This document shows, piece by piece, positions 8,656 through 26,565 of a DNA stretch of 64,000 nt. Source of the stretch: Chromatiales bacterium (ex Bugula neritina AB1) (GTDB lineage Bacteria; Pseudomonadota; Gammaproteobacteria; Granulosicoccales; Granulosicoccaceae); the NCBI GenBank assembly GCA_001730015.1, contig MDLA01000097.1:1-64000 (forward strand), read 5' to 3'. How positions within the stretch are numbered: position 1 is the first letter of the stretch; each line of letters starts with the position of its first letter. The notes under the pieces are model-generated. The model ran no database searches. It was not told the DNA's origin and was given only the letters and a program-made list of their open reading frames with translations. The translations under genes were made by a program, and so were the position numbers.

Positions 8656-10170
8656 ATGGCTGGTAAAACGACAATGCTCCGCAATGCCCACTTTCTGGGA
8701 ACAAAAGTGCGGAATTTGCGTAAGCGAAATAAGCTGACGATGGAAGATTTGTCGGCACGCTGTATAAAGGTTAACGCCGAAGCGGCACCGTCGGTTTCTT
8801 ATCTGTCGATGATTGAGCGAGGTAAGCGAACGCCGAGCAGGCAAATGCTTGAGGTGATAGCGCAGGTGTTCCAGAAAGAGGTTAACTGGTTTCTGGACGA
8901 TGTACCGGAAGAAGAAGCAATCACTCCCGACCGCGGCAATCATGGGGGTATCAGCGGCATGGCGCTGGAACCCGGTTTTCTATTTACTAACGATATTCTG
9001 CAGATAGCGATACCGGAAATGTTGTCCCAGACTGGAACCTCGGGACGACAGTTTGCCCATTTACTGATACGAGCACATCAGGAACGTAATCAGAACCATT
9101 TTCCGGATCTGGAGCGAGCAGCAGAGGAGGTGGGTAAAAAGGAAATGCCGCTGAGTCTGGATACGTTGCAGTCTATATGCAAGCAAATGGGTTTAAAAGT
9201 CAGGTGGTTTGATAAGCTCAAAAGAGCGCAGTTGAACCGGCTGGGGGTGGGCTCGGATTTTCTCGTGAGATCATACTTTGAAGCGCCCGATACAATCCAC
9301 CTGAGTAAACAGCTTAAGTTACAACCGGTGCGTCATAAATATGATCTGGCGGTCTATATAGCGCATAAGGTTTTGCACAACGGTGATGGTGTGAAGAGTG
9401 TGATGCTGACTGGCAGGCATCAGATTGAGGAAATCCGTGAAGTAGAAAATCACATGAGCCAGTCCAGCGCTGTGGATGCGCAGGATATCATACATGCCTG
9501 GCGCGATTTCGAATGCAGTTTTTTCGCAGCAGCGTTGCTGTGCCCTAAGGTTCCATTCCGGCGGTTGCTGGAACAGCATGCTTATGAAGTCAATATAGGT
9601 AAGTATGTTGATGTATCTACGTCGATTGTTATGCGCAGAATGACAGCGGTGTCGCCATATCCGCACTGGCACTATTTCGATGCCTACCCACCCGGTAAGT
9701 TGAATGCGGTATATCGCGGTAACGGTATACCGTTACCCTGGGGCAACATGCGAATGGTACAGGATCCGTGTCAGCACTGGGCTGTGTTCCGCAAGATTGA
9801 TTCAGATATGAGTTACTCATCGGCACAGATTTCTCTGCTTGATGTAGGTTCCGAATCCAGAATTTACTGCTGTGAATCAATCAAGGTCGATGATCTGGCA
9901 GGCAACAAGCAGGTATTGTGTGCGGGCATAGACATGAACCCGGCTATAGCCGCGCAGGGTGAAGATCCGTTCTCGCTCGCAGCCGATCTAAAAAAGGCCT
10001 GCGGTGGAAGGGGAGGGTCAGCAATGATCCCCAGGTCTATAAAACGTGAATTGAATAGTATTGCGAAAATATTGAATATCGCCTGGCTTGAGCGTGGTAT
10101 TGAAAACGAGGCCAGGGTAATTTGCCCGCGCAGTGGTGCTTGTCCGCGTGACCCTAAATGCTTTCCCTGA
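8656..10170 (+). CDS. XRE-type HTH regulator with large ligand-binding region (DUF3612/ScfR-like), likely glyoxylate-shunt regulator
   Basis: A 504-residue protein. Residues about 10-75 form a lambda-repressor-like HTH (LGTKVRNLRKRNKLTMEDLSAR...SYLSMIERGKRTPSRQMLEVIA). The rest resembles the long C-terminal regions of short-chain-fatty-acid regulators such as RamB/ScfR: a degenerate IrrE-like helix (DLAVYIAHKVLH, lacking HExxH) and a C-terminal Cys cluster ICPRSGACPRDPKC. I believe it corresponds to the DUF3612 group, but cannot confirm this. It is divergent from the malate-synthase-like gene and 1.5 kb from aceA; RamB-type regulators control isocitrate lyase and malate synthase, so a role in acetate or acyl-CoA response is the natural inference. 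Confidence 0.75.
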   Translation: MAGKTTMLRNAHFLGTKVRNLRKRNKLTMEDLSARCIKVNAEAAPSVSYLSMIERGKRTPSRQMLEVIAQVFQKEVNWFLDDVPEEEAITPDRGNHGGISGMALEPGFLFTNDILQIAIPEMLSQTGTSGRQFAHLLIRAHQERNQNHFPDLERAAEEVGKKEMPLSLDTLQSICKQMGLKVRWFDKLKRAQLNRLGVGSDFLVRSYFEAPDTIHLSKQLKLQPVRHKYDLAVYIAHKVLHNGDGVKSVMLTGRHQIEEIREVENHMSQSSAVDAQDIIHAWRDFECSFFAAALLCPKVPFRRLLEQHAYEVNIGKYVDVSTSIVMRRMTAVSPYPHWHYFDAYPPGKLNAVYRGNGIPLPWGNMRMVQDPCQHWAVFRKIDSDMSYSSAQISLLDVGSESRIYCCESIKVDDLAGNKQVLCAGIDMNPAIAAQGEDPFSLAADLKKACGGRGGSAMIPRSIKRELNSIAKILNIAWLERGIENEARVICPRSGACPRDPKCFP

Positions 10171-11925: not shown

Positions 11926-12681
11926 TTAATTGTTGCGATTGTCAGTTTGCAAACGGCGCTCCAGCCAGCGCACACCAGCGGAGACAATTAGAATCAGTAC
12001 CAGATACTCTAATAGCAACACCGTGTAGATTTCCAGTGGTCGATATTCAGTGACAACCAGTTCATTGGCTTTGCGAGTGAGTTCCTGCATACCGATAACA
12101 GATACCAGCGAAGACATTTTCAGCATATAAACCAGCTGATTCCCCAGCGCGGGCAGAATTCGACGGATCGCCTGAGGTAGAATGATAAAGCGCATGGTGT
12201 CGGTATAGCTCAGTGCGCAGGTATGTGCCGCTTCGTATTGGCCCTTATCTATAGATTGAATGCCAGCGCGGAAAATTTCCGCTTCAAATGCGCTGTCAGA
12301 TAGAGCCAGTGCAATTACACCGGCCCAGAACACCGTGATAGTTATGCCGAGTAATTGCGGCAAGCCGTAATATACCCAGAGTATCATTACCAGGATGGGG
12401 ACAGCACGTACCAGTTCGACATAGACGCGGTTAAAGCGTCGTAGCCCCTTGTGTGATGATAATCCCGGGAGCGCGACCAGCAAGCCGATGATGACAGAAA
12501 TTATAATTGCGGTTACAGACAGCAATACGGTGTAGTAGAAGCCGCTCAACAGGAACTGCAGGTTGGTCATGCCTTTTTTGGTAGCGGGGTTGACCACATA
12601 CCAGCCCCAGTCACCGGAGCAGCCCGCTAATAGCAGGCAGAGACCGCCCGCAAATAGAATTCTATACATTGTGCTGGTCAT
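11926..12681 (-). CDS. Polar amino-acid ABC transporter permease with lipobox-like N-terminus
   Basis: 251 residues from ATG 12681, 4 bp after the ATPase stop (ATG 12669 is possible). About five membrane helices and the cytoplasmic EAA loop (EAAHTCALSYTDTMRFIILPQAIRR, with the usual Gly changed to Ala) mark a HisM/GlnP-family permease. Unusually, the N-terminus reads ILFAGGLCLLLAGCSGDWGWYVV, a convincing lipoprotein signal followed by an aromatic segment. I recall similar N-termini in some proteobacterial permeases of this type, so it may be a real lipid-anchored extension. A second permease subunit is not present, which suggests a homodimer. Confidence 0.9.
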   Translation of the reverse strand: MTSTMYRILFAGGLCLLLAGCSGDWGWYVVNPATKKGMTNLQFLLSGFYYTVLLSVTAIIISVIIGLLVALPGLSSHKGLRRFNRVYVELVRAVPILVMILWVYYGLPQLLGITITVFWAGVIALALSDSAFEAEIFRAGIQSIDKGQYEAAHTCALSYTDTMRFIILPQAIRRILPALGNQLVYMLKMSSLVSVIGMQELTRKANELVVTEYRPLEIYTVLLLEYLVLILIVSAGVRWLERRLQTDNRNN

Positions 12682-12685
12682 TATG

Positions 12686-13453
12686 CTAGTGAGGAAGAAT
12701 TTGTTGCAGAAATTCCTGACAGCGTTTGCTGTCCGGTGCATTGAAAAATTTCTCTTTGTCTGACATTTCCACAATTTCGCCATGGTCCATAAAAACCATT
12801 TTGTCGGCAACTCGGCGGGCAAAGCCCATTTCGTGGGTTACACAGATCATGGTCATGCCGCTCTCGGCCAGTTCTACCATAACGTCGAGAACCTCATTGA
12901 TCATTTCCGGGTCGAGTGCCGAAGTCGGCTCGTCGAAAAGCATGATGTTCGGTTCCATGCATAATGACCGGGCGATGGCGACCCGCTGCTGCTGGCCACC
13001 GGACAATTGTGCCGGAAACTTGCTGGCTTGCTCGGGAATTCGCACACGTTCGAGATATTGCATCGCCAGTTCCTTTGCCTGATCTTTACTGAGTTGTCCG
13101 GACCTTACAGGCCCCAGCGTGAGGTTGTCCAACACGCTCAAATGCGGGAACAAATTGAATTGCTGGAACACCATGCCAACATTGGCGTGCACCGTTTTCA
13201 GGCTGTTTTTGCTGCCGTCGATCGCCGTACCATTAATAGAAATTAATCCGCTATCGTGTTTTTCAAGCTGATTGATGCAGCGAATGAGTGTGGACTTCCC
13301 TGATCCGGACGGGCCGCAGACCACCACACGTTCGCCCTGATTGATGGTTATGGAAACTTCGTTGAGCGCTTGAAAAGTGCCAAAGAACTTGGACACAGCG
13401 TGCATTTCAATGATGGCTTGATCAGTAGCCGTATGCTCTGGCTGCAGCGCCAT
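12686..13453 (-). CDS. Polar amino-acid ABC transporter ATP-binding protein
   Basis: 255 residues with all ABC motifs: Walker A GPSGSGKST, Q-loop VFQQFNLFPHLSVL, signature LSGGQQQR, Walker B IMLFDEPTSALDP and switch His in VTHEMGFA. Closest in pattern to GlnQ/HisP/AapP ATPases. It lies immediately upstream of the permease on the minus strand and is divergent from the binding-protein gene, so the three genes form one importer, with the two membrane-side genes in an operon. Confidence 0.95.
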   Translation of the reverse strand: MALQPEHTATDQAIIEMHAVSKFFGTFQALNEVSITINQGERVVVCGPSGSGKSTLIRCINQLEKHDSGLISINGTAIDGSKNSLKTVHANVGMVFQQFNLFPHLSVLDNLTLGPVRSGQLSKDQAKELAMQYLERVRIPEQASKFPAQLSGGQQQRVAIARSLCMEPNIMLFDEPTSALDPEMINEVLDVMVELAESGMTMICVTHEMGFARRVADKMVFMDHGEIVEMSDKEKFFNAPDSKRCQEFLQQILPH

Positions 13454-13588: not shown

Positions 13589-14359
13589 ATGAGACTAATT
13601 AAAGCACTCGCTGCTGCAGTCCTTGTAAGCGTCTGCGCCAACCCGGTTTTTGCCGAATCGGCGCTGAAAGACATCCTCAACAATGGTGTTCTGAAGGTTG
13701 GCACTACCGGTGACTGGAACCCGATGACCGTTAAGGATCCTGCCACAAACACCTATAAAGGCTACGACATAGACGTTATGACTGAGCTGGCTAAAGACAT
13801 GGGTGTCGAGCTGGAATTTGTACCCACAGACTGGAAAACACTGGTTAATGGCGTGGTTGCTGGAAACTATCACCTGACCGGGTCCGCTTCAATCAGTGCC
13901 GCGCGCATGAAGGCAGCCGGGTATTCGGATAGCTATATTTCTGTAGAAATCCGACCCTTCACAACTGTCGATAAAGCGGATCGCTTCAACGGCTGGGATT
14001 CCATTAATAAAGCAGATGTAAAAGTAGCAGCTACCCTCGGTACCACATTCGAAAAACTGGTCAAGGAATGGTTTCCTGATTCTTCAATTAAAGCAATCGA
14101 AGCACCGGCACTTCAGCATCAGGAAGTATTATCCGGTCGTTCGGATGTATTCGTTACTTCCAATATTGAAGGGGCAACGCTGACCGAAAAATTCGATAAA
14201 ATTGTTGCTATTGAAGTTGAGCAGGCACGCGCGCCGACACCTATTGCCATGCTGTTGCCGCAGGATGATCAAGTCTGGATCAACTACGTAAATAACTGGA
14301 TAAAAATCAAGCAGGCTCGTGGTTTCTTTGCTGCCACCGCCGCTAAATGGGGATTGTAG
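13589..14359 (+). CDS. Periplasmic amino-acid-binding protein (PheC-like SBP family 3)
   Basis: The start is ATG 13589, giving 256 residues with a clear Sec signal peptide (MRLIKALAAAVLVSVCANPVFA, cleaved before ESALKD); the longer open frame to 13370 overlaps the ATPase gene. The mature part is a type II binding protein (GVLKVGTTGDWNPMT, YKGYDIDVMTELAKDMG). It resembles cyclohexadienyl dehydratase PheC, a known offshoot of this fold, but the divergent ABC ATPase and permease genes make solute binding much more likely. Ligand unknown. Confidence 0.88.
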   Translation: MRLIKALAAAVLVSVCANPVFAESALKDILNNGVLKVGTTGDWNPMTVKDPATNTYKGYDIDVMTELAKDMGVELEFVPTDWKTLVNGVVAGNYHLTGSASISAARMKAAGYSDSYISVEIRPFTTVDKADRFNGWDSINKADVKVAATLGTTFEKLVKEWFPDSSIKAIEAPALQHQEVLSGRSDVFVTSNIEGATLTEKFDKIVAIEVEQARAPTPIAMLLPQDDQVWINYVNNWIKIKQARGFFAATAAKWGL

Positions 14360-14590: not shown

Positions 14591-15058
14591 TCATAAAACC
14601 GGCGGCTGGCCCACATGCTCCAGACCGTATTTTGTTCTCAGCGTTTTCATTGCTGTGTCGACGCTAACTGAATCCTCAGCGTTGCTCTCACGCAGTAATT
14701 GATCTGACTCAATAAAAAACTCATCGAGACCGGCAGGAGTGCAGATTAATAGTACCGATACCGGTTTGTCTGTCTCGTTCCAGAAAGAATGCGGCTTCCA
14801 GCTCGGGCAGGTGACACTCTGGCCTGATCCGATCCGGAATCGTTTTTCATGTTGAAACTGGAACGTCAGTACGCCTTCTGTCACATAAAATACTTCAACA
14901 AATTCATGTCGGGTAAAAACCGGTGGCGTGCTGTTTGGCCTCTCTTCATATTCGATAACGGTGACGCGACTGGCCGTTTCAGACCCTGGCGTTGAAATTC
15001 GAATACGGGTGCCGGTCAGGGTGTTTAGCCATGCCGCCGGCGAAGTGGGAGTATTCAT
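14591..15058 (-). CDS. Cupin-domain protein
   Basis: 155 residues from ATG 15058 (a TTG two codons upstream also fits). A single beta-barrel cupin is indicated by FTRHEFVEVFYVTEGVLTFQF and GSGQSVTCPSWKPHSFWN, carrying His/Glu/His candidates for a metal site in motifs 1 and 2. It is the last gene of a six-gene minus-strand run with a Rieske ferredoxin, a membrane desaturase, an M29-like protein, an AhpD-like protein and a 2OG-Fe oxygenase. It could be a small dioxygenase/isomerase or a sensor for the pathway product. Confidence 0.75.
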   Translation of the reverse strand: MNTPTSPAAWLNTLTGTRIRISTPGSETASRVTVIEYEERPNSTPPVFTRHEFVEVFYVTEGVLTFQFQHEKRFRIGSGQSVTCPSWKPHSFWNETDKPVSVLLICTPAGLDEFFIESDQLLRESNAEDSVSVDTAMKTLRTKYGLEHVGQPPVL

Positions 15059-15102
15059 GGTCAATTTTTCCGGCGCGTTAACGCGTCGTCAGGGTGTGAA
15101 AT

Positions 15103-15435
15103 TTAAACCAGTATTTGTAGTTTGCCATCCACAGTGCGGTTTTCATACAGGCGTAAGTTGCGGGTTACCGGTGCTGCAACCGCTTTTCCCGTCGTGGCGT
15201 CAAACAATCCCTGATGCAGGGGACACTCTATGTATTTGCCGTCGAAGTAACCATCACAGAGATTGGCTCCAGCATGCGTGCAGCGTGCATCACTGACAAA
15301 GATTCCCTCGTTTGTGTCGTATACCGCCATAACCCGATTGCCGAGCTCTACCGGCGTAGCATCGTTTGGTTCCAGTGAGGCAACATCGATAAGGTATTGC
15401 CAGCGTTTCGGTTTTTGGGCAGTCGGTTGTGACAT
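15103..15435 (-). CDS. Rieske-type [2Fe-2S] ferredoxin
   Basis: 110 residues, with cluster ligands C52, H54, C71 and H74 in the order C-x-H-x16-C-x2-H (RCTHAGANL and CPLHQGLFD). This is the size and pattern of soluble Rieske ferredoxins that carry electrons to oxygenases. It is encoded 27 bp after the fatty acid desaturase-type gene, which makes it the probable electron donor for that di-iron enzyme. No ferredoxin reductase is encoded nearby, so reduction must come from an enzyme elsewhere. Confidence 0.92.
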   Translation of the reverse strand: MSQPTAQKPKRWQYLIDVASLEPNDATPVELGNRVMAVYDTNEGIFVSDARCTHAGANLCDGYFDGKYIECPLHQGLFDATTGKAVAAPVTRNLRLYENRTVDGKLQILV

Positions 15436-15462
15436 AGGTAACGTTCTGTTTTTAACCCTGAT

Positions 15463-16431
15463 CTATTCGCGTTTTTTTTTGCCGAGCAGCTGCGACAGTA
15501 TATCTTTGTGCGCTCCGAGATAGCCGTTGTCTTCGACGTGAATATAGCCTTTGAGTTTTTGTTGCAATCGCGGCAAGGCGTGAAACGGTACTGAAGAAGC
15601 ATAGTGATGCGCTGCGTGAAAATTCATATTCCAGCAGAGGAACTGCATTAACGGACTAACCTGATTACTTCGGGTGTTGACTTTCAAGTCGCTCAGGGTG
15701 GGGCGGCCCACGTGTTCAGTCATTCTAATAGCACGCATGACCGGTTCACCCAGAATAACCGGTAACCACCAGTACCAGAGCGGCGCCCACCAGTTAAAAA
15801 CAATGCATATAAGTAACACCGACATATAAAACGCTAACATGATGCGTGCTTCGAGTATCAGTGTGCGGATCTCTGTTTTAGGCACAAAGCGTTTTTCTGT
15901 AGCATTCATCACTCCGCGCGAGTGCTGCCACAGTTCAGTGAGCTTGGCCTTCCAGTACGGAATTGAAGACAGGTAGTAGATATAACCCCACAGCGATTGC
16001 GGCAACGGAATCATCTCCGGATCGGACCCGGTTTGCTGAGTATAGGTGTGATGATCGCAATGTTCGTAGCGAAAAAACCGGTTGGGGAGCATGATCACCA
16101 AGCCGCAATAGTTACCGACAATGTCATTTAATTTTCGTGTTTTAAATGCGGTGTAGTGGATGCATTCGTGCTGCAGAGAAAAGTGATGCACCAGCACTAT
16201 GCCGTGGATAAACATGGCCGGCAGCAGCCAGACGCTGTTTTGTGCCAGCCATACCAGGTAACCGGTAAATACGGTCATTGCCAGAAAACCTGCCAGTCGA
16301 CGCAGCGCCGGGCCATTTGAGCGGCGCATCAGGCTTTTTAATTCACGTCGTGACAACGCCCCTTCCTGCAGTGCTTGTGTCAGCGGTGTCAGGATAGGAA
16401 CCGTACTGTGTTTTTTTGTTTGTGGCTCCAT
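15463..16431 (-). CDS. Membrane di-iron fatty acid desaturase/hydroxylase family protein
   Basis: 322 residues with hydrophobic helices near residues 48-85, 105-120 and 195-230. The three His clusters of the membrane desaturase superfamily are present: HECIH at 88-92, HCDHH at 124-128 and HAAHH at 272-276, plus H240. These ligate a di-iron centre that activates O2. The family covers acyl desaturases, hydroxylases and alkane-type oxygenases, so the reaction is open. The adjacent Rieske ferredoxin suggests a dedicated electron supply, unlike housekeeping acyl-lipid desaturases. Confidence 0.88.
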   Translation of the reverse strand: MEPQTKKHSTVPILTPLTQALQEGALSRRELKSLMRRSNGPALRRLAGFLAMTVFTGYLVWLAQNSVWLLPAMFIHGIVLVHHFSLQHECIHYTAFKTRKLNDIVGNYCGLVIMLPNRFFRYEHCDHHTYTQQTGSDPEMIPLPQSLWGYIYYLSSIPYWKAKLTELWQHSRGVMNATEKRFVPKTEIRTLILEARIMLAFYMSVLLICIVFNWWAPLWYWWLPVILGEPVMRAIRMTEHVGRPTLSDLKVNTRSNQVSPLMQFLCWNMNFHAAHHYASSVPFHALPRLQQKLKGYIHVEDNGYLGAHKDILSQLLGKKKRE

Positions 16432-16459
16432 AGAATTGCAGGTGGGTTTTATCAGATGG

Positions 16460-17548
16460 CTAGCTGGCGAGGCCTATATCGCGAACCGGGGTTCGGTAGA
16501 GCTCAACCAGATTGGGGTGACGGTCAAGTACCCGAGCGCTGTCGGGTAAGCGTTCCGGGTGCAGGCAGCCATTTTCCCAGACGGCTATGTCGTCGATAAT
16601 GATTGTCGGGTCTAGAATATTCCATGATATTTCCCCGGGGGCATAGTTACCGCAGGTGTGGAAATGCAATAGTCTGGGGTTGCCGAACGCACTGCCGGAC
16701 CAACGAATGATATCTGATTCGGCAGCCTGGCTGAAGTGACAGCCGGGGTGCATACCTGCATGCCATGAGTGCACATACCAGGGGTCGATATTAAACTGGC
16801 TGGCAACGTGGCGATAGTGATTTTCTACCAAGGTGACGTCGTCAGCCGGGCCGTCAAATTCAGTGATGCCGTTATCCTCGATATAGGCAGTTACGTCGTT
16901 AGGCAATGGTTGGAAATACGGTTCGTAGAAGCGGGAGCCGGTACCGATCAGGAATCGGCTGAGCGCGATTTTCCCGGAAAAACCCATACAGGGTACTGGC
17001 TGCGGTACCAGCATTGGAAAACGCTTGAGAGTAACTTCAGTCGGTGGCTGCGTGCTGTTCTCTGGAGCACCGCGGTAATCGGTGCCGCGCGGGCAGGTTA
17101 CCTGAATAGAACGGGCAGTCAGAAATGCTTCGTCGATTATGCGCTTTATTTCGCACAAACCGTGATAACAGGCGGTACCGAATGCGGAGTTCAGTGATTC
17201 GCGATTAAGGGTGTAGCACATTGTCGCCGGTGGAATATCGACGTTTTCGGAAAACCGGATCTGATCGCCCAATCTGGAGAAAAAGACCACATGGTCAAAG
17301 CCGCTGAGTGTTTTAACCAGCGCTTTGGTATCTGCCGACGTAGCAATGAAACTTTTCGCTTCAGTTTCATAGACGGTCATTCCCAGTGATCGGGCGGCAA
17401 TGGCGGTCAGTGAGGGAGCGTCGTCATCGTAGAAGTTGTTCCCTTCGGGTTCGCTGACGATTAACAGTCGCTCCCCGGCGCTGCCACCAACGCAATCACG
17501 TAGCAGTGTCAGAGCGCCGGCTGAAACTATTGAGTTAGTGTTTTCCAT
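16460..17548 (-). CDS. M29 aminopeptidase/NicX-like protein of unknown function
   Basis: 362 residues, not identified with certainty. The layout resembles the aminopeptidase T/NicX (2,5-dihydroxypyridine dioxygenase) group: an N-terminal CVGGSAGERLLIVSEPEG segment, a central ARSIQVTCPRGTDYRG (compare the 'vTsPaGTDl' strand of that family), and a C-terminal metal-site region with HAGMHPGCHF and LLHFHTCGNYAPGEISW, rich in His. A mononuclear-iron ring-cleavage role is one option, a peptidase another. It is 28 bp upstream of the desaturase gene and presumably co-transcribed. Confidence 0.5.
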   Translation of the reverse strand: MENTNSIVSAGALTLLRDCVGGSAGERLLIVSEPEGNNFYDDDAPSLTAIAARSLGMTVYETEAKSFIATSADTKALVKTLSGFDHVVFFSRLGDQIRFSENVDIPPATMCYTLNRESLNSAFGTACYHGLCEIKRIIDEAFLTARSIQVTCPRGTDYRGAPENSTQPPTEVTLKRFPMLVPQPVPCMGFSGKIALSRFLIGTGSRFYEPYFQPLPNDVTAYIEDNGITEFDGPADDVTLVENHYRHVASQFNIDPWYVHSWHAGMHPGCHFSQAAESDIIRWSGSAFGNPRLLHFHTCGNYAPGEISWNILDPTIIIDDIAVWENGCLHPERLPDSARVLDRHPNLVELYRTPVRDIGLAS

Positions 17549-17599
17549 TATTACGTGTGTCGATAGAGTTGGCAGCGGATAGTATGAAGCGGTGTATCA

Positions 17600-18184
17600 T
17601 CATTTAGAGTCGGACTTATAGTAGCCGACTGTGTCACCGTCAGTCGTGACGCCCAGCCCGTTTAATAGACGGTTTACGTAATTGAAGTATCCGATTATCT
17701 GATTTGCTTCCAGTATTTCCCCGTCGGTCAATCCTTTGCTGCGGAGCGCTATAACGTCGCTTTCCTGCATATCTGCCGGGTTTACCGTCAGTTTGCGTGC
17801 GTAGCGCATTAGTGCCAATTCAGCGCCTTCGAACACAGATTCAGGCCGGTCGCTGTGCAAAGCCGAGGAGATCGCATCGGCGCGGTTATCGTCTCCGATG
17901 AGGTGCTTTGCATTGGCCCAGTGATTTGCCAGTGAGTAAGGGCAATCGTTGAGAATAGAAACATACGAGGAAATGGTTTCCTGCAGCCAGGTGGGCAGCG
18001 TGTTGCTATCGTCATGTAAGGCGGCGCGGTACAACGTAACATGGCCGCGCATGGTGTTGGGTCTCAGGGAATGAACCCGCATCACGTTGTCGACAGTTCC
18101 GTGCGGGGTGCGGGCCAGATCCAGTGTGTCTAACAGATCTTTATCAGCGTGTTCATCGCTGATCATTTCAATCCACGCGCTCAT
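17600..18184 (-). CDS. AhpD/carboxymuconolactone decarboxylase-like protein
   Basis: Start ATG 18184 with AAGG upstream, 194 residues, all-helical. It resembles the peroxidase-related AhpD-like group. The usual redox motif C-x-x-C-x3-H is altered to C81-P-Y-S84-L-A-N-H88: the resolving Cys is Ser, so disulfide-based peroxidase chemistry is doubtful, though Cys81/His88 could still act in proton relay or hydrolysis. It lies between the M29-like and 2OG oxygenase genes in the same orientation and probably serves the same pathway. Confidence 0.78.
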   Translation of the reverse strand: MSAWIEMISDEHADKDLLDTLDLARTPHGTVDNVMRVHSLRPNTMRGHVTLYRAALHDDSNTLPTWLQETISSYVSILNDCPYSLANHWANAKHLIGDDNRADAISSALHSDRPESVFEGAELALMRYARKLTVNPADMQESDVIALRSKGLTDGEILEANQIIGYFNYVNRLLNGLGVTTDGDTVGYYKSDSK

Positions 18185-18342
18185 CGTTACCTTTCTATGT
18201 GTTAATGCAACCCCTGAAGCTACCATAACTATCAGTTTTACGACAGTTCAAATCTGTACTATTTCCGTGCGGGACGGATTTTTATGCCAGCGAACAAAAT
18301 TAACCGGTACAAGATACGCTGCACCGGGCAGGGAGCAGTCCG

Positions 18343-19314
18343 TCAGCTGTCCGCTTCACGGTAAGAGAAGGCCTTGCCAAAACGCCAGATGAGATAGTCA
18401 CCACAGCTGATCGGCGGCTCTTTGGGCTGATGATTTGCGCCGAACACGTGGGTGGCATCTATTGGCGTGTCCGGTTCCGGATCGAAGGCCAGTACCAGAG
18501 ACATGCGCTCGCGTCCCGATGAATTGACAACGCGGTGTGGTGTCGATTTGTATTCGCCATCGGTCCAGCGGCACAGCAGGTCCCCTACGTTGACGATCAG
18601 CGTGTCTTCGATAGGTGGAGCGTGGATCCAGTCTCCATGGACGTCCTGAACCTGCAAACCACCGGTGTCGTCCTGACAAAGTACAGTTAAAACGCCGAAG
18701 TCGGTGTGCGGTGCAACGCCAAACTGATTTTCACTACTGTCTGCGGGTTGCGCCGGGTAGTACACAAAGGATGCGCGACTCAATGGGCGCTGCACCTGCT
18801 GTAGAAAAAAATCTTCTGCCAACTCGAGCCCGATAGCAAACCCGCGCATCAGATGGTGAGCAACATCGTGAGCGTATTCGAAATACTCGACTGCAGAGTT
18901 TTCGAGTGCCGGTACAAATTCAGGCCATTGGTTTGTACCGCGAAGAGGGTGGTCCTGCACGGTATGTCCGTGTTCGTCCTGGTAGCCCCAGAGAAAGCTC
19001 TCTTTAAGATCAGCAGGTGCGTCATCCGTCATTTTCGACTGGCCCTGGCTCAGCCAGCCGCGATGCCTGGCGGATATTGTCACCGTTGATTTCTGCTCGT
19101 CACTGGCTCGGAAAAACTGATAGGCTGCGCTGCGTGCAGCCTCGATGGCAGCGGTTGGAATACCGTGGCCCTTAACATAAATAAATCCCAGTCCCTGACT
19201 GGCGGCGTGCAGTTGCTTTGCCACTTCACGGGGGTTGGTGCCGTCGCGAAGTTCGGTGATGTCGACGACAGGGATCACGTTTGCATCCATGCTTTTTGCC
19301 GTTGCATACGCCAT
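18343..19314 (-). CDS. 2-oxoglutarate/Fe(II) oxygenase, isopenicillin N synthase-like
   Basis: 323 residues. The N-terminal DIOX_N part (IPVVDITELRDG...GFIYVKGHGIP) is followed by a double-stranded beta-helix with Fe ligands H203, D205 and H260 and the 2OG-binding R270-x-S272. The presence of RxS indicates true 2-oxoglutarate use rather than the IPNS reaction. Family members hydroxylate, desaturate or cyclise small molecules; one lineage makes ethylene or modifies amino acids. It is the first gene of the six-gene run, downstream of a palindrome-containing spacer at 19315-19555. Confidence 0.88.
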   Translation of the reverse strand: MAYATAKSMDANVIPVVDITELRDGTNPREVAKQLHAASQGLGFIYVKGHGIPTAAIEAARSAAYQFFRASDEQKSTVTISARHRGWLSQGQSKMTDDAPADLKESFLWGYQDEHGHTVQDHPLRGTNQWPEFVPALENSAVEYFEYAHDVAHHLMRGFAIGLELAEDFFLQQVQRPLSRASFVYYPAQPADSSENQFGVAPHTDFGVLTVLCQDDTGGLQVQDVHGDWIHAPPIEDTLIVNVGDLLCRWTDGEYKSTPHRVVNSSGRERMSLVLAFDPEPDTPIDATHVFGANHQPKEPPISCGDYLIWRFGKAFSYREADS

Positions 19315-20545: not shown

Positions 20546-20607
20546 AGCGTGGTTGGAACTGTGTCACTAATATTCGCGTTCCTGTGATATAGCGCGAGTT
20601 GTCAGCC

Positions 20608-21738
20608 GTGATTTCAATAAACAAAAAAACCTGTTCGCCAATCGGGACTGCTGTCTTGGTTGTGTTGTTTTTAATGCTGAATGTATCGGCGGCCTTGGCG
20701 CAGTCAAGCGGTGTCTGCCTCGATTCCGATAACGATGGCTGGGGCTGGGACGGTTCACAATCGTGCCGTATTGAAAATGCCGGCGCTGGCTCCTCAGCGC
20801 AATGTATCGACGAAGACGGTGATGGCTGGGGCTGGGATGGCGAAAATTCCTGTCTGGCGACAGCCGCCGGGCCTGCAGCGGGTGGCTCCGCTTGTATAGA
20901 TGAAGATGGTGATGGCTGGGGTTGGAACGGCTCTGCTTCGTGCCGGATTCAAGCAGCCCCGGTTAATCAGGCTCCGGTCAGTCAAGGTCCGGGCAATCCT
21001 CCGAACCCGGGTGTTTCTGGCGGTAATGGACGTTTCAATGCGTCTCGGGATCTTGTCGCTCTGCACTTTGATCATGCACCGGATCGGGACGACGGTCATG
21101 CGGCAGCAGCCGCGCTGGCGGTGGTAAGGAAACTCGGCCTTAATGTACAGGTGGTCAGTGCGACATACGGTGTCTGGAGCGCAGATCGCTACGTTCCGGA
21201 ATCGGTTTCATTAATGAACTCTGTCTGGGGCAGCAACTGGCTTGATGCTCACAATAGCCACTCGATGTCGGTAGAGCAGGCGACTCAGCGCTGGGTAACT
21301 ACTTTGTCTGCAGGTGGCGATGTATGGATTGCCGAGGGCGGACCATCCGACTTCACCGCAGCGGTCATACAAAATATAGCCAGGCAATATCCGGAGATTC
21401 AAACCCGTAGTCGTATCCATCTGATACAGCACAGCGACTGGAATGAAGATCACACCTTGCGGGCTTCGCTAAATTACGTTCGAAGCAACGTTCGCTATGT
21501 GAAAATTGCCGACGGAAATGAGCCGAATGCCACGGCCGATTTCAGGAACTTCAGTCAGAGTTTTGTTGATGGCGTAACCCGCAGTCAATATGGCTCAGCC
21601 TGGAGAGCCGCGTTCAGCTACCTGAGCCCGTATGAAAAGCTTGATTTCTCCGATACAGTTGAACTACTCCATATTGTTGGCACCAGTTTGAATGCCGTAG
21701 CTACAGTCGATGATTTTGCCCGTGAGTTTATTTACTGA
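20608..21738 (+). CDS. Secreted protein with three DGWGWDG repeats and a nucleoside hydrolase-like domain
   Basis: About 376 residues; GTG 20608 is used, though TTG 20599 is also possible and no clear ribosome site is seen. A Sec signal peptide ends near SAALAQ. Three repeats of the form C-x-D-x-D-x-DGWGWDG-x-x-SC follow about 30 residues apart; the alternating Asp residues resemble calcium loops and the Cys pair could close each repeat. After a Pro/Gly linker, the C-terminal domain has LHFDHAPDRDDGHAAAA, similar to the Asp-rich metal site of inosine-uridine nucleoside hydrolases. That assignment is tentative; it may be a surface or periplasmic hydrolase. Confidence 0.7.
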   Translation: MISINKKTCSPIGTAVLVVLFLMLNVSAALAQSSGVCLDSDNDGWGWDGSQSCRIENAGAGSSAQCIDEDGDGWGWDGENSCLATAAGPAAGGSACIDEDGDGWGWNGSASCRIQAAPVNQAPVSQGPGNPPNPGVSGGNGRFNASRDLVALHFDHAPDRDDGHAAAAALAVVRKLGLNVQVVSATYGVWSADRYVPESVSLMNSVWGSNWLDAHNSHSMSVEQATQRWVTTLSAGGDVWIAEGGPSDFTAAVIQNIARQYPEIQTRSRIHLIQHSDWNEDHTLRASLNYVRSNVRYVKIADGNEPNATADFRNFSQSFVDGVTRSQYGSAWRAAFSYLSPYEKLDFSDTVELLHIVGTSLNAVATVDDFAREFIY

Positions 21739-25605: not shown

Positions 25606-26565
25606 TTACACCTTTTGAATAGAGTCATCCGTGTTTAACACCACGCGGTGCAGAAGCTTGATCAGGTCGGAAAGTGCGTTATCGTCGGCTCCGTCCAGTG
25701 CCAGCGCATCCTGTTTCTGCCCAAGCTTGATTAAATGTTCTACTCGATCATGACCGGCCGAGGTGCCTGCAACCTCTAGTTCGCCGTTTGAATCGGTCAC
25801 AATGCACAAGCCGTTTTCCTCCATTGACGTAACCATATCCGACAACGATTCAGGGTCGATGAAAGTTCGCGTCGCCAGATCAGGTAGGTTGTGGCATGCG
25901 CCGCCGTGAAGTGAAGCGAGCAAGCGCCATTCGGGCACAGACAATCCACTGTCGCGAACTGCCTTGTGAAAGTGCGCTGCCATTTGCCGGTAGGCCCGGG
26001 AGAGGTTGTAAATAAGTAAGCCGTCTATCGGCAGAGAATGTGAAATCTGGCCGCTTGCAGCCGTGGGGCGTATATTTCTAAGAGGGTTCGCGGTTGAGTA
26101 GGCGCCGCCGCTGAACACCAGCGCTTCAGTGTTTGATCGTGTAATTTGCTCTATTTGCCCGACTATAATCCAGTGATCTCCACCTTCGTATTCTGCCCAG
26201 GCGCTGCAGTCAAACCGGCAAGCGCAATGCTCAAGGATCGGCACATGGTTATCATCGTTGGTGTAGGCTGTGCCTGCGAATTTATCTTCACCGGTTTTAG
26301 CGAAACGATTCGAGAGATCCACCTGATCACTCGCTAGAATATGCACTGCAAAGTGCGCCGCAGATCTAAACACACTTGCGGACAAGGCAGATTTAGTTAC
26401 GCTCCATAAGATTAACGGCGGATCCATAGACACCGAGTTGAAACTTGACGCCGTCATGCCAACCGGTTTGCCGGATTCGTCACTGGCGGTCACGATTGTC
26501 ACACCGGTTGCGAATGCTGAAAGCGCATCGCGTAAATCTCTTGAGCTAAACGGGGTCTCTGCCAT
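25606..26565 (-). CDS. Flavin reductase with C-terminal MarR-like domain (C1-type monooxygenase reductase)
   Basis: 319 residues. The N-terminal 165 residues are an HpaC-like flavin reductase (ALSAFATGVTIVTASDESGKPVGMTASSFNSVSMDPPLI, flavin and NADH binding). The C-terminal 140 residues look like a winged-helix MarR fold (LSRAYRQMAAHFHKAVRDSGLSVPEWRLLASL...LSDMVTSMEENGL). This architecture is that of the C1 component of Acinetobacter baumannii p-hydroxyphenylacetate hydroxylase, where the MarR-like part binds the phenolic substrate and stimulates flavin reduction. It is encoded 53 bp after the oxygenase component, which would use the FADH2/FMNH2 it supplies. Confidence 0.88.
   Translation of the reverse strand: MAETPFSSRDLRDALSAFATGVTIVTASDESGKPVGMTASSFNSVSMDPPLILWSVTKSALSASVFRSAAHFAVHILASDQVDLSNRFAKTGEDKFAGTAYTNDDNHVPILEHCACRFDCSAWAEYEGGDHWIIVGQIEQITRSNTEALVFSGGAYSTANPLRNIRPTAASGQISHSLPIDGLLIYNLSRAYRQMAAHFHKAVRDSGLSVPEWRLLASLHGGACHNLPDLATRTFIDPESLSDMVTSMEENGLCIVTDSNGELEVAGTSAGHDRVEHLIKLGQKQDALALDGADDNALSDLIKLLHRVVLNTDDSIQKV

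Follow-up and report, generated by a model that had tools for sequence, protein, structure and literature searches.

What might six consecutive genes for oxygenases and associated proteins, set beside an amino-acid-type importer, do for a relative of the Granulosicoccaceae? The question is raised by a stretch of 64,000 nucleotides (contig MDLA01000097.1, positions 1 to 64,000 of the forward strand; "the window" below) from the 7.4 Mb draft genome of Chromatiales bacterium (ex Bugula neritina AB1), in which six minus-strand open reading frames (ORFs) follow each other from position 19314 to 14591 with gaps of 116, 51, 28, 27, and 38 bp in the ORF listing. A first-pass annotation had singled out these consecutive same-strand genes with their short gaps as an oxidative cluster that it could not match to any named pathway, and the arrangement is confirmed at these coordinates. 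Building on observed gene content, conservation, linkage, a fold match, and module swapping, we propose with a probability of about 50% that these genes serve the breakdown of a small N-heteroaromatic compound with a six-membered ring, zwitterionic and N-methylated, for which homarine (N-methylpicolinate) or a close relative is the most likely identity.

The series begins with a 2-oxoglutarate (2OG)-Fe(II) oxygenase (18343..19314; 2OG-FeII_Oxy, PF03171, 1.9e-25, plus DIOX_N), which displays an isopenicillin-N-synthase-like fold with intact HxD...H triad and 2OG-binding arginine. It is followed by an AhpD-fold, peroxidase-related protein (17600..18226; score above the cut-off of TIGR01926) whose true start is, judging from homologues, probably Met15 at about position 18184, and by a NicX-fold protein that we propose to be a ring-cleaving Fe(II) dioxygenase based on its fold match and conserved residues (16460..17548). 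A MocD-like membrane di-iron oxygenase of the FA_desaturase family (15463..16431; FA_desaturase, 2.3e-34), a MocE/AndAb-like Rieske [2Fe-2S] ferredoxin (15103..15435; Rieske, 2e-16), and a small single-domain cupin (14591..15064; Cupin_2, 1.4e-13) complete the set, all on the minus strand. Profile and fold searches agree with the family calls made earlier (2OG, AhpD-like, M29/NicX-like, desaturase, Rieske, and cupin), and none of the six proteins reached an NCBIfam equivalog cut-off, TIGR01926 being a subfamily model. No promoter-like sites stood out in the cluster, and the gap from the 2OG gene to the AhpD-like gene contains a terminator-like hairpin (18327-18304).

Are these six genes a unit? 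Four metagenome-assembled genomes (MAGs) of uncultured Granulosicoccaceae carry NicX-like genes that are 59-78% identical to the one in the window. In one of them (L007), the complete set of six, including the cupin, is found together with the importer in the same order and with 66-83% identity for the six, so that these are not chance ORFs. Another (L004) has five genes and the importer and lacks the cupin, a third (L005) has kept the 2OG, NicX-like, and AhpD-like genes, and the fourth (L006) the 2OG and NicX-like genes. In L004, an ATP-binding cassette (ABC) importer is inserted exactly between the 2OG and AhpD positions, i.e., at the same point as the hairpin in the window, and both features would suit two independent units made up of the 2OG gene alone and of the AhpD-to-cupin genes. 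However, three of the four Granulosicoccaceae MAGs, as well as several Alphaproteobacteria, have the 2OG gene next to an AhpD or NicX gene, and we consider such a division distinctly unlikely.

Beyond the Granulosicoccaceae, the NicX-like gene was found in 51 of 395 genomes of the family (Rhodobacteraceae-like, sampled at close to one per genus) and is rare elsewhere, with 3 of 274 genomes in the class and 4 of 398 in the phylum, own genome counted in both. We mapped 44 main-clade NicX-like loci, window included, from Granulosicoccaceae, Rhodobacterales, and other Alphaproteobacteria. An amino-acid-type ABC importer is present in 36 of them, AhpD-like genes and VanA-type Rieske monooxygenases (RHO-alpha, PF19112) in 29 each, creatininase-family genes and XRE-cupin regulators in 19 each, the desaturase in 15, the Rieske ferredoxin in 14, the 2OG oxygenase in 10, and SoxB in 9. 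In Rhodobacterales, the cluster takes the form of about five enzymes with the XRE-cupin regulator and the importer. Homologues scattered without linkage, which the first-pass annotation had named as the outcome that would speak against its view, are not what this neighbourhood analysis found, and the linkage in relatives speaks for a cluster of oxidative catabolism that has a ferredoxin of its own. In a plasmid collection, AhpD-like copies at least 59% identical were likewise confined to records that also bear a NicX-like gene. The constant parts are the NicX-like gene, the AhpD-like gene, and the importer. The idea of a six-gene unit thus holds with regard to linkage but not to fixed composition, since the 2OG gene is exchangeable and the desaturase/ferredoxin pair optional.

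Two further patterns were seen around these loci. A creatininase-family gene, sometimes with a small glutathione S-transferase (GST), accompanies the same importer in desaturase-free clusters (L013, L015, L064, L065, L136, L137, and others). In four loci, genes of the histidine-utilization (hut) type are found in the vicinity of the NicX-like cluster, as annotated hutG/hutU in L015 and as ORFs that by sequence resemble hutH, hutI, and formiminoglutamate deiminase in L066, L071, and L072.

How firmly the composition is patterned becomes apparent from the oxygenases. No locus among the 44 has both the 2OG enzyme and RHO-alpha, with 2OG alone in 10, RHO-alpha alone in 29, and neither in 5 (Fisher P = 1.2e-6, a value that ignores relatedness, with Granulosicoccaceae contributing 5 of the 10 2OG loci). 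The same swap is found inside Rhodobacteraceae (L092 and L097) and in other alphaproteobacterial families (L136, L137, and L140). In 2OG-bearing genomes, the best RHO homologue elsewhere reaches at most 39%, compared to 57-88% in two RHO-bearing genomes. Because of this mutual exclusivity, the 2OG enzyme looks like a swap-in for the step of the VanA-type Rieske monooxygenase, and we propose that it catalyzes the first oxygenation. The desaturase/ferredoxin pair, in turn, occurs with either oxygenase. SoxB is enriched in loci with the desaturase (7 of 15 vs. 2 of 29, P = 0.004) and creatininase is depleted (1 of 15 vs. 18 of 29, P = 0.0004), suggesting two pathway variants; these comparisons are exploratory, having been chosen after viewing the maps, and the P values carry no correction for multiple testing.

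The most constant member of the cluster, the NicX-like protein, has no match in Pfam, NCBIfam, or PHROGs. An AlphaFold model built from an alignment of 11 relatives (predicted local distance difference test score, pLDDT, of 88) has its top fold match in NicX (7cup/7cn3; Foldseek 1.8e-15; VIA-align Z 23.2 over 303 residues at 15% identity), the 2,5-dihydroxypyridine 5,6-dioxygenase of the nic nicotinate pathway of Pseudomonas putida, followed by M29 aminopeptidases with Z 16.6. Since a profile-profile comparison with NicX gave a probability of 11%, this relationship rests on the fold, and searching PDB sequences with a profile of the NicX-like protein returned chance matches only. An M29 peptidase by Pfam was considered and rejected, as PF02073 matches neither the protein nor its own genome and detected the controls.

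NicX binds its iron through H265, S302, H318, and D320 (PMC7910607). In a MAFFT alignment with a NicX reference identical in sequence to PDB 7CN3, which is weak at 15% identity, these correspond to H263, T298, E306, and S308 of the window protein, i.e., H265 is kept and the other three positions differ. T298 adjoins the invariant H297, and H263, H295, and H297 are invariant in 16 relatives; E306 shows no variation in the set of 11 and is replaced by aspartate in two paralogues. From these residues, a 2-His-1-carboxylate mononuclear iron site of His/His/Glu type would be allowed. The window protein is thus NicX-like in fold yet outside NicX by its defining ligands, and genes of the nic pathway are absent beside it.

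With three of four NicX ligands changed and M29 aminopeptidases as second-best fold match, the protein might instead be a metallo-hydrolase of M29-like ancestry, e.g., a deformylase or amidase, in a cluster for breaking down a non-aromatic betaine or amino-acid derivative through hydroxylation and N-demethylation. The amino-acid type of the importer would suit such a substrate, and the MttB and SoxBDAG neighbours described below suit quaternary amines generally. However, the NicX fold match clearly exceeds the M29 match, PF02073 misses both protein and genome, and an invariant His/His/Glu set is left for mononuclear iron, and we regard the hydrolase as unlikely. A broader generalization, in which the NicX-fold proteins would form an undescribed family of ring-opening His/His/Glu iron-oxygenases serving several N-methylated heterocycle pathways, and a 2OG enzyme would have displaced the Rieske monooxygenase from this first step in lineages independent of each other, is one we can put forward only speculatively.

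What would the remaining proteins contribute? The CxxC site of the AhpD-like protein reads C-x-Y-S in the window and in all aligned homologues except L099, where the remaining cysteine is lost as well. With the resolving cysteine gone, a thiol peroxidase is unlikely on sequence grounds, and we propose a non-redox role after ring cleavage. The desaturase-family protein has all three histidine boxes (HECIH, HCDHH, and HAAHH) and is 30-40% identical to rhizobial homologues. Together with the Rieske ferredoxin, which we propose donates electrons to this adjacent membrane oxygenase, it recalls the likewise adjacent FA_desaturase-family and MocE-like genes of the rhizopine-type MocD/MocE system. Unlike there, the window ferredoxin falls far under the cut-off of the MocE model TIGR02377 (65.5 vs. 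136.15 bits), and the pair stands in a different cluster without an adjacent reductase. The cupin had been considered as a trimmed XRE-cupin regulator, a candidate that was dropped as there is no significant similarity between them.

The first-pass annotation had left open whether such enzymes serve tailoring or degradation. Enzymes of the 2OG, desaturase, and Rieske families are known in biosynthesis too, and the nearest NCBIfam match of the desaturase-family protein is GntB, which would fit oxidative tailoring inside a natural-product biosynthetic cluster. No synthetase or assembly enzyme is found nearby, however, and importers and N-demethylating oxidases are linked to these clusters across families. 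This linkage favours degradation and makes tailoring very improbable.

The importer consists of a periplasmic solute-binding protein of the Pu1068 / cyclohexadienyl-dehydratase-like family (13589..14359, plus strand, start set at ATG 13589), a GlnQ-like ATPase (12686..13453, minus strand, from profile matches), and a GlnP/EhuC-like permease (11926..12681, minus strand; the ORF runs from 12822, and homologues favour a start at about 12681). As its solute-binding gene converges on the cluster, the importer and the cluster do not share one transcript. The recurrence of the importer in 36 of 44 loci supports the earlier suggestion that it probably supplies the substrate. The solute-binding protein matches 5KKW with an E value of 6e-70 and about half of the aligned residues identical. 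We take this structure to be Pu1068, the SAR11 cyclohexadienyl-dehydratase-like binding protein (PDB 5KKW/5WJP) of the same family. The ligand of Pu1068 was reported as unknown in 2020 (PMC7683729).

In small marine genomes, no hom operon was found beside the solute-binding gene, whose neighbours there were housekeeping genes such as photolyase and gat. No NicX-like gene is present in SAR11-like genomes that encode the same solute-binding protein, and the homologues of this protein stand there beside canonical-scoring SoxBDAG instead. In two such genomes of 1.2-1.3 Mb (L144:4252-10935 and L145:4043-10709), a Pu1068-family solute-binding protein and permease lie directly downstream of SoxBDA, and SoxB of L144 exceeds the cut-off for canonical sarcosine oxidase.

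A link to N-methyl groups comes from the sarcosine-oxidase-like SoxBDAG found in 9 main-clade loci and several loci of NicX-like paralogues, some of which also have an MttB-family methyltransferase. The NicX-linked SoxB proteins form a subtype, which with scores of 483-514 bits stays below the TIGR01373 cut-off of 529. Two other SoxB copies of this genome score 618 and 712 bits, and the SAR11-like copy falls within this range. The subtype itself is encoded in this genome on contig C125, beside a second NicX-like gene, and is 74% identical to the Ruegeria SoxB; this neighbouring NicX-like gene is not the only one outside the window. It is one of two NicX-like genes (37% identical) that the genome has besides that of the window, each next to a dipeptide-type ABC importer (L060, G000:C125:44000-62000; L061, G000:C90:20000-38500); one of these loci also has SoxBDA and MttB, and the other AhpD-like, GST, and luciferase-like monooxygenase (LLM)-flavin genes.

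Taken together, the importer, the hydroxylases, the NicX-fold ring opener, and the N-methyl-amino-acid oxidase make an N-methylated pyridinium carboxylate a plausible substrate class. In the route that we envisage, the compound would be taken up by the adjacent amino-acid-type importer and hydroxylated a first time by the 2OG oxygenase, a step that the VanA-type Rieske monooxygenase would perform in most relatives. A second oxidation by the membrane di-iron oxygenase and Rieske ferredoxin (MocD/MocE-like) would follow in clusters having the pair. The NicX-fold enzyme with its rebuilt His/His/Glu iron site might then open the ring with O2, and the AhpD-fold C-x-Y-S protein and the cupin could process the ring-opened product. 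Finally, SoxBDAG, here encoded elsewhere beside the second NicX-like gene, would strip the N-methyl group from the resulting N-methyl amino acid.

Homarine itself fits as a tentative candidate, less assured than the class. NicX cuts the C5-C6 bond of the pyridine ring (PMC7910607), and cleavage of this type would leave the carbon skeleton of N-methylglutamate from homarine; the homarine catabolic pathway of 2026, as far as it is cited in PMC13390433, includes the N-methylglutamate dehydrogenase Mgd. The verdict of no named pathway was too strong, given that NicX-like ring opening and N-demethylation point to N-methylpyridinium (homarine-like) catabolism. Indeed, the pathway may already be described, and the window could hold a Granulosicoccaceae version of the published homarine pathway (Ferrer-Gonzalez et al., Nat Microbiol 2026, doi 10.1038/s41564-026-02313-7) in which a 2OG enzyme takes the role of the Rieske oxygenase. 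The two would have in common the candidate substrate, a methylated pyridine carboxylate, and the involvement of an enzyme that oxidizes methylated amino acids, Mgd in the published pathway. Homarine is drawn down quickly by the roseobacter R. pomeroyi, and the Rhodobacterales form of the cluster with its five or so enzymes, regulator, and importer would suit this explanation. The published operon reportedly reaches SAR11, whereas the SAR11-like genomes examined lack the NicX-like gene, and identity of the two pathways appears rather doubtful to us.

Several points weigh against catabolism of an N-methylated heteroaromatic by this cluster. The locus itself gives no evidence on the substrate, which we infer along with reaction order and products. 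SoxBDAG is not linked to the window cluster, and no creatininase-family homologue was found in its genome at the sensitivity of the search. With one NicX ligand of four kept, the sequence could also be that of a metallo-hydrolase, and the genes may fall into two units at the hairpin behind the 2OG gene. As the SAR11-like carriers lack the NicX-like gene, the solute-binding family is no pathway marker by itself.

Elsewhere in the window, an XRE regulator with an IrrE-like region and DUF3612 (8656-10170, plus strand) is syntenic with the cluster in L007 at 92% identity. A secreted-looking protein with CxDxDxDGWGW(D/N)G units repeated near its N-terminus is encoded at 20599-21738 (plus strand), and a homologue of the p-hydroxyphenylacetate 3-hydroxylase reductase component at 25606-26565 (minus strand; NF045919, 226 bits, below cut-off).

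Without a Pfam or NCBIfam name and with plasmid copies labelled "hypothetical protein", the NicX-like family is invisible to annotation, and the Granulosicoccaceae form that combines it with the 2OG swap is a variant worth reporting even if the pathway is known. Should our reading be true, the swap would cleanly exemplify how, within one pathway, an iron-oxygen enzyme of one class can take the place of another, and a likely ligand class would be at hand for the solute-binding family that includes Pu1068 of SAR11. The cluster would then provide a genetic basis, open to testing, for the recycling of abundant N-methylated pyridinium metabolites by marine and host-associated bacteria.

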